From Alphaproteobacteria bacterium (GTDB taxonomy: Bacteria > Pseudomonadota > Alphaproteobacteria > Micropepsales > Micropepsaceae): a DNA stretch of 64,000 nucleotides. This document shows, piece after piece, positions 4,483-9,197 of this stretch (the first letter of the stretch is position 1; the number at the start of each line of letters is the position of its first letter). The stretch covers positions 62,001 to 126,000 of the forward strand of contig JAATGP010000004.1 in NCBI GenBank assembly GCA_015654635.1, in the 5' to 3' direction. The notes under the pieces are model-generated. The model searched no databases. It saw nothing but the letters and a program-made list of their open reading frames with translations, and was not told the origin of the DNA. A program made the translations under genes and the position numbers.

Positions 4483-4530
4483 ACCTAGAGCGACGGACGT
4501 TCAAAACGTGCTCGGTCCGTCGCTCTAGGT
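4483..4530. terminator. perfect 15-bp inverted repeat across the ATPase stop codon
   Basis: ACCTAGAGCGACGGA (4483-4497) and TCCGTCGCTCTAGGT (4516-4530) are exact reverse complements with an 18-base loop. The hairpin contains the stop codon and last codons of the minus-strand TraD-like gene and lies between two convergent genes, so it may end transcription in both directions. No long T run follows, so the terminator role is an inference. Confidence 0.55.
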
Positions 4531-5828
4531 CTTTGTTCTGTCGCAACTTTGCGCTGCTCTGCTCCCGGCAGATTGGATTGTTTTGGCCCGGGCCTTACGT
4601 ATTGTCGGTGACCTGAGCTCCGAAGCTCATCCAATTGATTGGAGAGTCCATTCTCGCCCTTGATCGTTGTGGCGCTAAACGGACGATTTGGAGTGTTGTT
4701 GATCATTAGCTTTAGGTAGACCGACCGATTTGGCAGATTTAGAAGATCCAGCGCGTCGAACACCGGTTGAAATTCGGCTGCCAAAGCGACCGCATCCTCC
4801 GATCCGACTCGAAATGAAATAATCGTTCCCGCATTGCCAAGGACAGCGTGCCGAATATCCGGTTCAAGCTGATGCATATACTGATGGGCAAGCACCAAGC
4901 CCACACCATATTTCCGCAGCTCGCTCATCATGTTGGCGAGCATGAGCGTTGTAAAATTATGGAATTCGTCGAGATAGACGAAGAATGGCGGACGCGCATC
5001 ATGCGCAGATTCCGCACGGCTAAAAGCTGCCAACCCGAGCGTTGACACGATCAGGCTGCCGAGGACCAGCGAGCTTTCCTCGCCCAGTTGCCCCTTCGAG
5101 ACATTCACAAGCAATACCTTATCCCCGTCCATTAGCGCGCGGAAATGTAAGTCGATCTGGGGTTCAACGAGTATCCGGCGAAGCGTTGGGTCAGAAAGCA
5201 AAGCGCCAAGTTTGTTCTGGATCGGCGCACAGGCCTCCGCCCGCAGACGCGACGGATAGTTCTCGAATTCATCCTCCCAGAACTGCTTCACTATTGGATT
5301 ACGAATGCCTTTGACGACATCCTTCCGAAAATCGTCATTGGTGAACAGGGTGAGAATAGCCGGGAGGGTCGATCCATCCCGCTCCAGGAGCGCGTAGAGG
5401 GTGTTGCGCAACACATGCTCCATGCGCACACCCCAGGCGTCCGGCCATATCTTCTTGAGGGTTTCGAGGAGGCCGGAGACTGCCAGCGGTATCTTGTCCT
5501 CTCGCACACGACGCAATGGGTTATATCCGTATGGCTGCTTTGGGTCGCTGGCGTCGAGGCAGATGACACGCTCAGGATCACACGCGCGCATACGCTCGGC
5601 AAGTGAGTCGACCAAATCACCGTGCGGGTCCACTAGTGCAAATCCACGCCCAGCCTCAAAGTCCTGCCACGCCAACGTTTCCAGCATCTTGGACTTGCCG
5701 ACACCCGTCTTACCTATCACATACATATGCGATAGGCGGTCTTTCTGCTTGATGCCAAACGGGACCCGTGAATTGCGATGGTTTGTCCTGGCGAAATACG
5801 AGACATCATGTGAGGCCATGTCCCGCAT
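4485..5828 (-). CDS. VirD4/TraG/TraD-like conjugative ATPase
   Basis: A 447-residue P-loop ATPase. Walker A is GKTGVGKSKMLE near residue 40 and Walker B is PPFFVYLDEFHNF near 280, followed by a sensor-like region (GLVLAHQYMHQLEPDIRHAVLGNAGTIISFRVG) typical of HerA/VirD4/TraD proteins. No N-terminal membrane anchor is visible, unlike classic VirD4 coupling proteins, so it resembles the soluble DUF87/TraM-recognition type. Its divergent neighbour is a replication-relaxation protein, a pairing I associate with plasmids and integrative elements. No relaxase, VirB proteins or integrase are present here, so it is probably a remnant or accessory part of a mobile element. The last codons lie in a perfect inverted repeat. 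Confidence 0.85.
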   Translation of the reverse strand: MRDMASHDVSYFARTNHRNSRVPFGIKQKDRLSHMYVIGKTGVGKSKMLETLAWQDFEAGRGFALVDPHGDLVDSLAERMRACDPERVICLDASDPKQPYGYNPLRRVREDKIPLAVSGLLETLKKIWPDAWGVRMEHVLRNTLYALLERDGSTLPAILTLFTNDDFRKDVVKGIRNPIVKQFWEDEFENYPSRLRAEACAPIQNKLGALLSDPTLRRILVEPQIDLHFRALMDGDKVLLVNVSKGQLGEESSLVLGSLIVSTLGLAAFSRAESAHDARPPFFVYLDEFHNFTTLMLANMMSELRKYGVGLVLAHQYMHQLEPDIRHAVLGNAGTIISFRVGSEDAVALAAEFQPVFDALDLLNLPNRSVYLKLMINNTPNRPFSATTIKGENGLSNQLDELRSSGHRQYVRPGPKQSNLPGAEQRKVATEQRPRATDRARFERPSL

Positions 5829-6217: not shown

Positions 6218-6247
6218 TTGAAGGATCGCCCAAGCACGAGCGATCCC

Positions 6248-7159
6248 ATGATTGTGCCACGCCGTTCACGAATGCGCCGGAAAAGTATCGGCAAGCGCTT
6301 GGCGCTTACGGATCGCGATATCGCGCTATTCCGGACCCTCGCCCGTTACCGCTATCTGCGCTCGACCTATCTGCACGCCTTCGTCGGCGGAGAATCCGAG
6401 AAACGGTTCAAAGAGCGGCTGGGAGACCTCTTCCATGAGGGGTACGTCGATAGGCCAGAGGAGCAATGGCGTTTTGCGGACGCGCGGTGCAAGCCGGTCG
6501 TGCATGAGCTTGGCAAGCGCGGGGCCGAGATGGTTGGGGCCGAAGTCGAGACGGGAGCCGTCACATGGTTGCGTGACAGGCCGCATCGGCAGTTTGAGCA
6601 TTCGCTGATGATCTGCGAGGTGCTGGCGTCGATTGAATTGGCAACGCGCAGCCGAACCAGTGTCCGCTATATCCCTTGGTCCGAGATATTGGCCAAAGCA
6701 CCGGAGGCAACGCGCCGGTCGGCCCAGCCTTATGCTCTCTCAGCCTCCAATGGCGACACTGTTGTGCCCGATGCGATCTTCGGCCTCGAATACCGCCGCG
6801 ATGGGCGCAAGACCTACCGCTTCTTTGCCTTGGAAGCAGACCGGGGCACAATGCCGATTGCACGGTCCACCAAGATCGGCACATCCGTTCTTGCAAAGCT
6901 GGAAACCTACCGCCGCATCTTGAAGCAAGAGGTCTATCGCTCTCGGCTGGGTATTCCAAATATGTTGATACTGACGATCACCATTGGCTCCAACCGGTGC
7001 GCTGAGCTGGTCCGCAGGTTCCAAGAGACGGGCGACGGGGTACCGTTTTTGTTCAAGGCCATTGATACAGGCTCGGCGAGCCTTTCTATGCCGGCCACCG
7101 CTTTGCTTGTTGATCCTTGGCAGCGGGCCGGATTGGATGCTCTGTCGATTGCGGCCTAA
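6248..7159 (+). CDS. replication-relaxation family protein
   Basis: About 303 residues from ATG 6248. The ORF track uses a TTG 30 bases upstream. The N-terminal region LTDRDIALFRTLARYRYLRSTYLHAFVGG...RLGDLFHEGYVDRP is the winged-helix pattern of replication-relaxation (Replic_Relax) proteins, and the C-terminal half keeps VPDAIFGLEYRRDGRKTYRFFALEADRGTMP and KLETYRRIL, which look like a nuclease-like fold with acidic residues in the usual places. Members occur on plasmids and integrative elements and are thought to relax DNA for replication or transfer. Here it is divergent from a TraD-like ATPase, which supports a mobile-element origin. No strong ribosome binding site is visible, so the start is uncertain. 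Confidence 0.8.
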   Translation: MIVPRRSRMRRKSIGKRLALTDRDIALFRTLARYRYLRSTYLHAFVGGESEKRFKERLGDLFHEGYVDRPEEQWRFADARCKPVVHELGKRGAEMVGAEVETGAVTWLRDRPHRQFEHSLMICEVLASIELATRSRTSVRYIPWSEILAKAPEATRRSAQPYALSASNGDTVVPDAIFGLEYRRDGRKTYRFFALEADRGTMPIARSTKIGTSVLAKLETYRRILKQEVYRSRLGIPNMLILTITIGSNRCAELVRRFQETGDGVPFLFKAIDTGSASLSMPATALLVDPWQRAGLDALSIAA

Positions 7160-7180: not shown

Positions 7181-8776
7181 TCAAAGGCCTCGCCGTTTTG
7201 TGCTTTGTGCCGCCTGTTGCGCGGACCAGCGCACCCGTTCGCCGACATAGGTGGCAAACGGGGCGATATTCAGATCGATAGAGGCTTGATCGAGTGCCTG
7301 AAGATAGGCCTCCCGGTCTTCCACGCGTATTACCGTCCAAGGATAGCCGCCGGAAGCGAGCGCTACGTTCATGAGAAACCGCGCCATGCGTCCGTTGCCG
7401 TCCGGGTACGGGTGAATGTATCCGAAGAGCCAGTGCCCGAGCACCGCCCGCACCGATGGCTCTGGCTCATGTTCGATGAGATCGAAAAGGGCTGTCATGG
7501 CGTCGGGCACCGCTTCGGCGCGCGGCGGCACATAGCGCGAACCGCGCAGATACACGGGGCTGCGCCGATACCCGGCAAGCGCCGTTGCAGGCATGATACC
7601 GGCCATGACGAATGGCTGAAAAAGTTCGCGGTACCACTGGCGGTGGTCTGCCCGGATCAGAGCGCCTGAATTCTTACCTTCAAGCACGTCCATGACGGTT
7701 TTCTTGACCTGTTGGAATGCCTGCCAGTATCCGCGTGCCGCGAGCGCGTTCCTGCTGCCGACATCGGCTTCGTTGTCCTTAGGGTCCCATGCTCCCAAGC
7801 GGACACGCTCCACCAGTTCCGGGGAGACGTTGTAGCCTTCAATCGAAAGCGAGTGATAGGCATCGCTCGTGTAGATGCCGTCCACGAAAGACAGATACGC
7901 GTCTGGCTTCGTTGGCAGTCCGGGCGCCTGCGGGAAGGTATCGAGCACAGTTCCGCGGGCTTGTTCCCAAAGAGCATGCAGTCGCTCGACGATGGGAGGG
8001 GCTGCAATGCCAACCGCACCAAATGTCTGCTCTGGCGCGAAGGGATCGGTTTCGCGGATCACATACCCTGCCGATTTCATCGTGGCGACGATCTCATCGG
8101 CGACCGCCGTGCGGCCAAGGCGCCGGAAGGCACCCGCAAGGCGCCCCGCGACGACGGAGCGTCCCTCATCAAGAAGAACGGCCAGGACTTCGGAGGCATC
8201 CTTGATGTGTGAAATCACGACCTGCATCTCGACAGGGTTGCGTACAAAGAAGGCCTCCGACACGCGGACGAGCGCGGCGGCGGGCGAGAAAAGACGCAAG
8301 CCGTCACGCTCCACCAAATCGCTCTCGGCGGGCATGCGCTGCTTGAGGTCGTAGAGGGACGTGCCGAAAAGCAGCTTTATCGTGTTATTGGTGCCTTTGG
8401 GACTATACGCCACCACCTGAGCTGGGATGATGGTGTTCTCGGCATGCAGCAGCAGCGACTGCTCAGGCGAAAGGTGCCACGCGTCTCCAAAACGGTCATT
8501 GCAATAGCGGGTGCAGAACTCCCAGAAGGAGGCAAACCAGGGGGTGCTATCTCCTGTCGCGGCACCGGGGCTCGTTAAAATCAGCCAGCCCTTGGTGACC
8601 TCCCGGAGAAATCCGTTTCGCAGAAGCCGCTCCCGGTGCACGCGCGAGAATTCGTTCGAGCGAAAGACGTGCCGGTCGGTTTGCAGTTTCTGTAACACCG
8701 CAAGTGACGCGGCGAGTTTTTCGTGCGGCGTAGCCAAGGAAACATCCCGTTCTGATGCACGTTTCTTGTGCTGCAT
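7181..8776 (-). CDS. Fic-domain protein with AbiEi-like N-terminal DNA-binding region
   Basis: A 531-residue protein. The Fic core is C-terminal: HPYPDGNGR at 455-463 matches HxFxxGNGR, the AMP-transfer motif with catalytic His. An upstream SLSIEG at about 309-314 fits the inhibitory (S/T)xxxE(G/N) helix, which would make it a self-inhibited class II Fic protein. Residues about 20-220 read like a winged helix (SRVHRERLLRNGFLREVTKGWLIL) followed by LSPEQSLLLHAENTIIP and resemble AbiEi-type antitoxin domains; this part is by resemblance only. ATG 8776 lies within a few bases of the expected transcription start of a good sigma-70 promoter, suggesting a leaderless mRNA. It likely modifies a protein or nucleotide target under its own repression, as in toxin-antitoxin or defence systems (inference). 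Confidence 0.88.
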   Translation of the reverse strand: MQHKKRASERDVSLATPHEKLAASLAVLQKLQTDRHVFRSNEFSRVHRERLLRNGFLREVTKGWLILTSPGAATGDSTPWFASFWEFCTRYCNDRFGDAWHLSPEQSLLLHAENTIIPAQVVAYSPKGTNNTIKLLFGTSLYDLKQRMPAESDLVERDGLRLFSPAAALVRVSEAFFVRNPVEMQVVISHIKDASEVLAVLLDEGRSVVAGRLAGAFRRLGRTAVADEIVATMKSAGYVIRETDPFAPEQTFGAVGIAAPPIVERLHALWEQARGTVLDTFPQAPGLPTKPDAYLSFVDGIYTSDAYHSLSIEGYNVSPELVERVRLGAWDPKDNEADVGSRNALAARGYWQAFQQVKKTVMDVLEGKNSGALIRADHRQWYRELFQPFVMAGIMPATALAGYRRSPVYLRGSRYVPPRAEAVPDAMTALFDLIEHEPEPSVRAVLGHWLFGYIHPYPDGNGRMARFLMNVALASGGYPWTVIRVEDREAYLQALDQASIDLNIAPFATYVGERVRWSAQQAAQSTKRRGL

Positions 8777-8834
8777 TATTGCAAGTATATAATGCTGTAC
8801 ATATGCAAGTCAATGACGTCTTGTTATGACAAGT
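8776..8834 (-). promoter_or_regulatory. fic promoter with three 24-bp-spaced repeats
   Basis: On the minus strand TTGACT (8808-8813) and TATACT (8784-8789) are separated by 18 bases, a good sigma-70 promoter reading into the Fic gene. The sequences TTATTGCAAGT (8776-8786), CATATGCAAGT (8800-8810) and TTATGACAAGT (8824-8834) repeat at exact 24-base intervals, the first two over the -10 and -35 elements. The third also forms the palindrome CTTGTTATGACAAG (8820-8833). The even spacing suggests cooperative repressor binding, possibly by the N-terminal winged helix of the Fic protein itself. Confidence 0.65.
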
Positions 8835-9123
8835 GAATAGCGCTGCGCAGTCGCAAGCCCGTCCTGTGCCCTGATCTATCGGTATTGCCAACGGCCATAG
8901 ACGCAACACTCGTTGCCACCTCGCCCACGGGGATTAATCCCCAGTATTGCGGCACTTGTGGTGACCGTGACGAGATTGCCGGGTCGACATGGGCTACTTC
9001 AAGCGCCATATTCCGCCAACCTGGGCTGGATGGGGAGGAACCTCTCTATGCCCATCAGGGTAGAGCCAAAAGAGAGCCAAAAATTTTGACGCGAAAGCCT
9101 AACATATTGAAATAAAACGGTTT
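8835..9123. other. intergenic region before tRNA-Gly
   Basis: About 290 bases. A 61-residue minus-strand ORF (8824-9009) overlaps the Fic operator and has no recognisable domain. The hairpin CACGGGGATTAATCCCCAG lies near 8929-8944. No integrase gene or duplicate of the tRNA 3-prime end was seen nearby. The tRNA promoter should lie in the last 60 bases, which are AT-rich. Confidence 0.4.
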
Positions 9124-9197
9124 GCGGGCGTAGTTCAATGGTAGAACGGCAGCTTCCCAAGCTGCATACGTGGGTTCGATTCCCATCGCCCGCTCCA
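9124..9197 (+). tRNA. tRNA-Gly(CCC)
   Basis: A complete 74-base cloverleaf. The acceptor arms GCGGGCG and CGCCCGC pair fully, the D arm contains AGTTCAATGGTAGAAC, the anticodon stem GCAGC/GCTGC encloses loop TTCCCAA with anticodon CCC, and the T arm is TGGGTTCGATTCCCA. The discriminator base T and an encoded CCA end the gene. Glycine tRNA genes are frequent integration sites, which fits the mobile-type genes upstream, but I found no attachment-site duplication in the window. Confidence 0.97.

Follow-up and report, generated by a model that had tools for sequence, protein, structure and literature searches.

A class II Fic enzyme with an AbiEi-like head very probably silences its own gene through a promoter array of 24-bp direct repeats

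In the 64,000-nucleotide stretch of DNA analysed here (the window), we find a gene for a Fic enzyme that, judging from sequence, very probably silences its own expression, because an array of 24-base repeats lies over the promoter in almost every copy of the gene and the letters of these repeats covary with residues in the N-terminal part of the protein, its AbiEi-like head. The family of Fic proteins carrying such a head is widespread in bacteria, occurring in many phyla and on plasmids.

The 531-codon open reading frame described in the first-pass annotation is present on the minus strand (7181-8776), as are the three 11-mers placed upstream of it, which start at 8776, 8800 and 8824 (plus strand), exactly 24 bases apart. 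This phasing stands, while both the number and the length of the repeats have to be revised: at least four units occupy 8751-8846, and the full unit is 24 bp long, reading ACRRCAnnATnnACTTGTAnnnnn, with two conserved patches (ACRRCA and ACTTG). The core of the fourth, degenerate unit, ACGTGCA (8762-8756), is found 24 bp downstream of ACTTGCA and falls inside the region taken as coding in the annotation. Within the window itself, the sequence upstream of codon 14 scores 0.48 for self-similarity at lag 24, a value reached in none of 5000 Markov resamplings at that lag and in 0.04% of them at any lag from 15 to 39. A sigma-70-type site, TTGACT-18-TATACT, lies at 8813-8784 (minus strand), so that the repeats do span the -10 box (unit 2), the -35 box (unit 3) and the upstream region, as had been proposed. 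No second three-unit array was detected elsewhere in the genome at one mismatch; a regulon reading was dropped on this uniqueness (one mismatch over three units).

Table 1 Features of the fic gene and its promoter in the window (residues in 518-aa numbering).
Feature	Position	Strand	Remark
Likely CDS, 518 aa	7181..8737	-	TTG start 8737-8735; product MATPHEKLAASL...; AbiEi-like head and class II Fic domain
Fic active-site motif HPYPDGNGRMAR	7379..7414	-	residues 442-453
SLSIEG inhibitory motif	7835..7852	-	residues 296-301; class II, N-terminal to the Fic core
Arg228	8054..8056	-	predicted reader of base 2 of ACRRCA (operator column 1)
Residues 115-118	8384..8395	-	beta-hairpin in the second head subdomain; predicted reader of operator base 12
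Winged-helix subdomain	8576..8728	-	residues 4-54 of 518; H4-18 E24-26 H32-40 E44-48 E51-54
13 extra codons of the first-pass annotation	8738..8776	-	more likely leader and operator unit 1; alternative ATG 8776-8774
Operator unit 1, GCAGCACAAGAAACGTGCATCAGA	8751..8774	-	degenerate core; in predicted leader; also matched with one mismatch
Operator unit 2, ACAGCATTATATACTTGCAATAAT	8775..8798	-	holds the -10 box
-10 box TATACT	8784..8789	-	18-bp spacer
Operator unit 3, AAGACGTCATTGACTTGCATATGT	8799..8822	-	holds the -35 box
-35 box TTGACT	8808..8813	-	
Operator unit 4, GCAGCGCTATTCACTTGTCATAAC	8823..8846	-	
Possible degenerate fifth unit	8847..8870	-	only the core GCTTGCG at 8858-8852 is repeat-like (one mismatch)

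Conservation of the repeats upstream of homologues had been named beforehand as a refutation test, and the repeats are kept. Among homologues 35-80% identical to the protein, 24 is the best upstream lag (out of 15 to 39) in 70 of the 71 that have enough upstream DNA, with a mean lag-24 identity of 0.49 compared with 0.26 in shuffles (z=45.6). A second, later set (35-69% identical), in which L124 and L126 carry largely the same arrays as members of the first set, shows the period in 29 of 32 cases. Within the same loci, the period accompanies 116 of 132 fic genes and fragments versus 34 of 469 other open reading frames. Distant homologues retain the spacing with unrelated letters, for example the cores ACCTATAA, ACTATC and ACTAG. 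The promoter is fitted to the array in a fixed way as well: TTGACA-like and TATAAT-like hexamers occupy the same column of adjacent units, 24 bp apart, in 46 of 116 arrays, whereas each of the other 23 column offsets yields 0-3 arrays with such a pair. Counting copies from the gene, the hexamer met most often is TTGACT for the third copy and TATACT for the second. The homologue records are titled Alpha-, Gamma- and Deltaproteobacteria, Acidobacteria, Gemmatimonadetes and others, phyla beyond that of the source having been sampled through related loci and plasmids.

Covariation between operator and protein was counted in 116 sequences as changes of an operator base and a residue on the same branch of a tree built from the Fic half alone. 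Residues follow the 518-aa numbering; op12 denotes the first base of the core and op1 the second base of ACRRCA. Over 138,600 tests, with parsimony used to assign changes and a tree that came from a short search and contains many weak branches, the strongest association links G at op12 with Arg116 (7 of 8 changes on shared branches, p=1e-9), followed by C at op1 with Arg228 (7 of 9, p=1.9e-9); G at op12 also changes with His118 (4 of 4, p=4.4e-6). When branches were drawn in proportion to their length, the observed count was reached in 0 of 200,000 draws for both the Arg116 and the Arg228 pair, and the corresponding result for His118 is 1e-5. Position 118 ranks first of all positions in mutual information with op12, and 16 of the 22 couplings with p<1e-4 fall in the head, which holds 919 of the 1925 traits.

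A simple rule, partly fitted after looking at the data, gives op12 correctly in 103 of 107 cases: Arg116 or His118 goes with G, and otherwise Asn118 goes with A, and Lys118 or Ser118 with C. A single clade supplies most of the evidence for Lys118 with C (same-branch P=0.25). For the gene in the window, which has Thr116 and Asn118, the rule predicts A, in agreement with its ACTTG core, and Arg228 is present together with C at column 1 in three of the four units. A single fixed pattern, biased towards A at op12 and C at op1, set the frame of the consensus operators; such a bias would weaken rather than create the associations of op12 with G and C. An initial attempt with APC-corrected mutual information was dominated by phylogeny, and same-branch counts were used instead. 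With 92 rows, the best pair was G at op12 with His118 (p=1.6e-6), below what survives about 97,000 tests; the added rows brought up Arg116 and Arg228, both of which survive the number of tests. Starred branches supplied too few independent pairs for a test. Altogether, this covariation of operator letters with head residues 116, 118 and 228, which is correlative, supports binding of the units by the protein, and it backs the earlier suggestion that repressor and enzyme may share one chain.

The head (residues 1-239) gave an AlphaFold2 model (mean pLDDT 94.5), in which, as first suspected, a winged helix and an AbiEi-like fold (wHTH plus a second subdomain) are predicted. Its best PDB match by Foldseek is the AbiEi antitoxin 6y8q (E=6.5e-5, probability 1.00, TM 0.41/0.47) and the next is Rv2827c, 1zel (E=3e-4, probability 1.00). 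Because both structures align with only modest TM-scores (0.38-0.54), we take the relation between head and AbiEi to be one of fold. No AbiEi family appears in the Pfam, NCBIfam or PADLOC results for the protein or among the Pfam hits of 61 head sequences, which leave residues 1-239 without a convincing family; a PDB sequence search with the head profile likewise returned nothing convincing and no AbiEi chain. The winged helix itself displays no strong coupling with operator letters, so its presumed role in DNA reading rests on the fold.

In genome profile searches, the open frames with a full-length match to the head are about 507-552 aa long, apart from a few shorter exceptions; the head is thus nearly always joined to a Fic half. 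In two loci (L127 and L140) it is found in shorter open frames of 312 and 332 aa, where the Fic half may therefore be truncated or frameshifted.

The second half of the frame is a Fic domain (Pfam Fic, E=8e-14). Its HPYPDGNGRMAR matches the class II active-site pattern HPFx[D/E]GNGRxxR, and H442, G447, N448, G449, R450 and R453 are invariant across 67 sequences. The internal SLSIEG noted at first is there and fits the class II inhibitory helix, (S/T)xxxE(G/N), on the same chain; this pattern is found in all but one of the 66 homologues checked. The full-length AlphaFold2 model has a mean pLDDT of 91.4, and the PDB matches listed for it are Fic proteins such as FICD and 3cuc. The PADLOC model SoFic is matched in part (residues 293-527 on model positions 49-272 of 361), short of a full-length match. 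We infer a self-inhibited class II Fic protein, a putative AMP-transferase.

According to the first-pass annotation, transcription starts at the ATG at 8776, so that the mRNA is leaderless and the protein has 531 residues. The geometry behind this idea is right, the predicted transcription start lying at about that ATG, which is moreover kept at the same place in the closest relatives. Homologue starts, however, align with codon 14 of the frame, often with an in-frame stop just upstream, and the 13-codon N-terminal extension is missing from most of them. Many begin with M-A-T-P-[NH]-E-K-L or alike, whose counterpart in the window is LATPHEKL with a TTG codon; in close relatives, codon 14 or 15 is a further ATG, which in several follows a purine-rich stretch. 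Compared with L009, the sole close relative without an indel in this codon-position count, codons 1-13 differ at 17 of 39 sites (5/4/8 by codon position) and show no strong codon pattern, unlike codons 15-53 (31 of 117 sites; 8/4/19). The ATG sits where operator units 2 and 1 meet, and its overlap with the array could by itself conserve it. Since homologues start at codon 14, the leaderless ATG is doubtful, and we rate it as rather unlikely; the TTG at 8737, with a predicted leader of about 43 nt, is the favoured start.

The gene is patchily distributed, being detected by profile searches in 11 of 289, 14 of 398 and 31 of 369 genomes, and 75 plasmid records contain it with at least 80% coverage. 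No neighbour family is common to most loci, and no AbiEii nucleotidyltransferase toxin gene was seen among the annotated neighbours of five plasmid copies. The full protein was found in no phage record and in four viral-contig loci. Being patchy, often plasmid-borne and free of a shared neighbour family, the gene fits an accessory module.

In the window, it adjoins genes for a TraD/TrwB-like coupling protein (4485-5828, minus strand) and a Replic_Relax protein (6218-7159, plus strand), and a close relative (L011/L006) has a similar Replic_Relax-like frame and an integrase-like frame nearby. The Replic_Relax, coupling-protein and integrase-like neighbours suggest a mobile element. A tRNA-Gly (CCC) lies just past the fic promoter (9124-9197); its 3-prime end has no second copy within the window at up to 3 mismatches, hence no att duplication is seen there. 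Overlapping IS4/5-type transposase frames occupy 211-1060, with DUF4096 in 497-1060. A second, distant Fic gene is encoded in the same genome (L002, G000:C31; 26% identity over residues 292-470 of the 531-aa frame), and the Aminobacter plasmid pSR7 (L102) carries two adjacent Fic genes, the second of which belongs to the AbiEi-like-head family.

From the computed array, period, promoter fit, fold, motif conservation and covariation we now infer a control circuit of binding, repression, AMPylation and toxicity, which we consider likely as a whole. Through its AbiEi-like head (residues 1-239), a putative self-inhibited AMP-transferase of the class II Fic type would bind head to tail along tandem, non-palindromic 24-bp operators over its own promoter and repress it. 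The -35 box falls in one unit and the -10 box in the next (24 bp being 6 + 18), with another unit in the leader and one or more upstream; bound protein would exclude RNA polymerase, as the units overlie the -35 box, the -10 box and the leader. The protein would contact each unit twice, at sites separated by roughly one helical turn: Arg228 would take part in reading the fairly constant half ACRRCA, and the hairpin around residues 115-118 would read the other half, whose letters vary among homologues (ACTTG in the window). Autorepression would keep expression low and the SLSIEG helix would keep activity low, the whole forming a putative self-contained toxin-like or defence cassette of mobile elements. 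Against this explanation, 24 bp is no whole number of helical turns. A bolder version, which we regard as speculative and unlikely in its entirety, is a single-gene toxin-antitoxin-like system with repressor, inhibitor and Fic enzyme on one chain, whose diversifying array and base-to-residue code provide each lineage with a private operator. The array might then also gate the enzyme, loss of operator binding (upon entry into a naive cell or disruption by a phage) raising both expression and activity.

Binding to tandem repeats is common among regulators, and the array could in principle belong to another host regulator, with the head of the Fic protein serving in target recognition, dimerisation or some other job. 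This is very unlikely: the array follows the fic gene over many phyla and plasmids while its letters change, those letters covary with head residues 116, 118 and 228, and no other gene is common to most loci. Another origin of the repeats would be as iterons or as a partition or transfer site of a mobile element that the Fic gene merely adjoins. Iterons resemble the array in being direct repeats of comparable length, to which winged-helix proteins bind, and the gene is often on plasmids and, here, stands beside mobilisation-type genes. That reading is nevertheless scarcely credible in view of -35 and -10 boxes inside consecutive units at one fixed offset, arrays positioned relative to the Fic start codon, and their retention in chromosomal copies.

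The proposed self-regulation might also serve a regulator of housekeeping or metabolism instead of a toxin or a defence cassette. CbFic2 and FICD show that class II Fic proteins can hold regulatory roles (PMC10628234); patchy presence, plasmid carriage and the lack of fixed neighbours fit an accessory cassette better, and we hold the housekeeping role to be conceivable, if somewhat doubtful.

Class II Fic proteins are common, and their functions and control are nearly unknown according to the authors who described CccR (PMC9755527). The present family amounts to a testable one-gene control circuit, built on an AbiEi-like fold that Pfam fails to recognise in a Fic setting. Its operators and matching reader residues form a natural series across many genomes, which would allow the specificity of AbiEi-type DNA readers to be derived by comparison. 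If the Fic domain is toxic, toxin-antitoxin logic would be contained in a single chain.

Autorepression by a Fic chain is not new, since CccR of Yersinia pseudotuberculosis, a class II Fic protein whose HTH is C-terminal, has been published as an autorepressor on a single chain (PMC9755527). The first-pass view that such single-gene control is undescribed therefore falls in this respect; of the AbiEi-like head, the array of tandem direct repeats and the covariation we found no description in the open-licence literature on Fic with AbiEi, direct repeats or autorepression, which likewise yielded no paper on this architecture. Like the protein studied here, CccR combines a class II Fic domain with an HTH-type DNA-binding domain in one chain; by repressing its own promoter close to the -35 and -10 boxes, it also resembles our protein as proposed here. 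It differs in having about 380 aa, with the Fic domain N-terminal and the HTH C-terminal, whereas our head is N-terminal; in its operator, where a dimer occupies the inverted repeat AGATAATCAT-N26-ATGATAATCT instead of tandem direct repeats; and in being secreted by T6SS (PMC9755527).

CbFic2 of Coxiella burnetii, a Fic enzyme with DNA-induced activity (PMC10628234), and SoFic (8cil, 3eqx) are also class II Fic proteins with a wHTH domain, which in both is C-terminal and accompanied by DUF4172. DNA binding by CbFic2 may be non-specific, and that of SoFic had not yet been shown when PMC10628234 appeared. An AbiEi-like head is absent from both BT_2513 (3cuc), a Fic protein, and human FICD, whose structures are among the closest solved ones to the Fic half. 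That head shares its fold, a winged helix plus a second subdomain, with AbiEi (6y8q) and Rv2827c (1zel). AbiEi, whose full length is required, autorepresses abiE through two 23-bp inverted repeats separated by a 3-bp gap (PMC3985639), sites close in length to those described here. It is, however, the product of a separate antitoxin gene paired with the nucleotidyltransferase toxin AbiEii; in our family the toxin-like Fic domain is on the same chain, and direct repeats with a period of 24 take the place of the AbiEi-type inverted-repeat operator.
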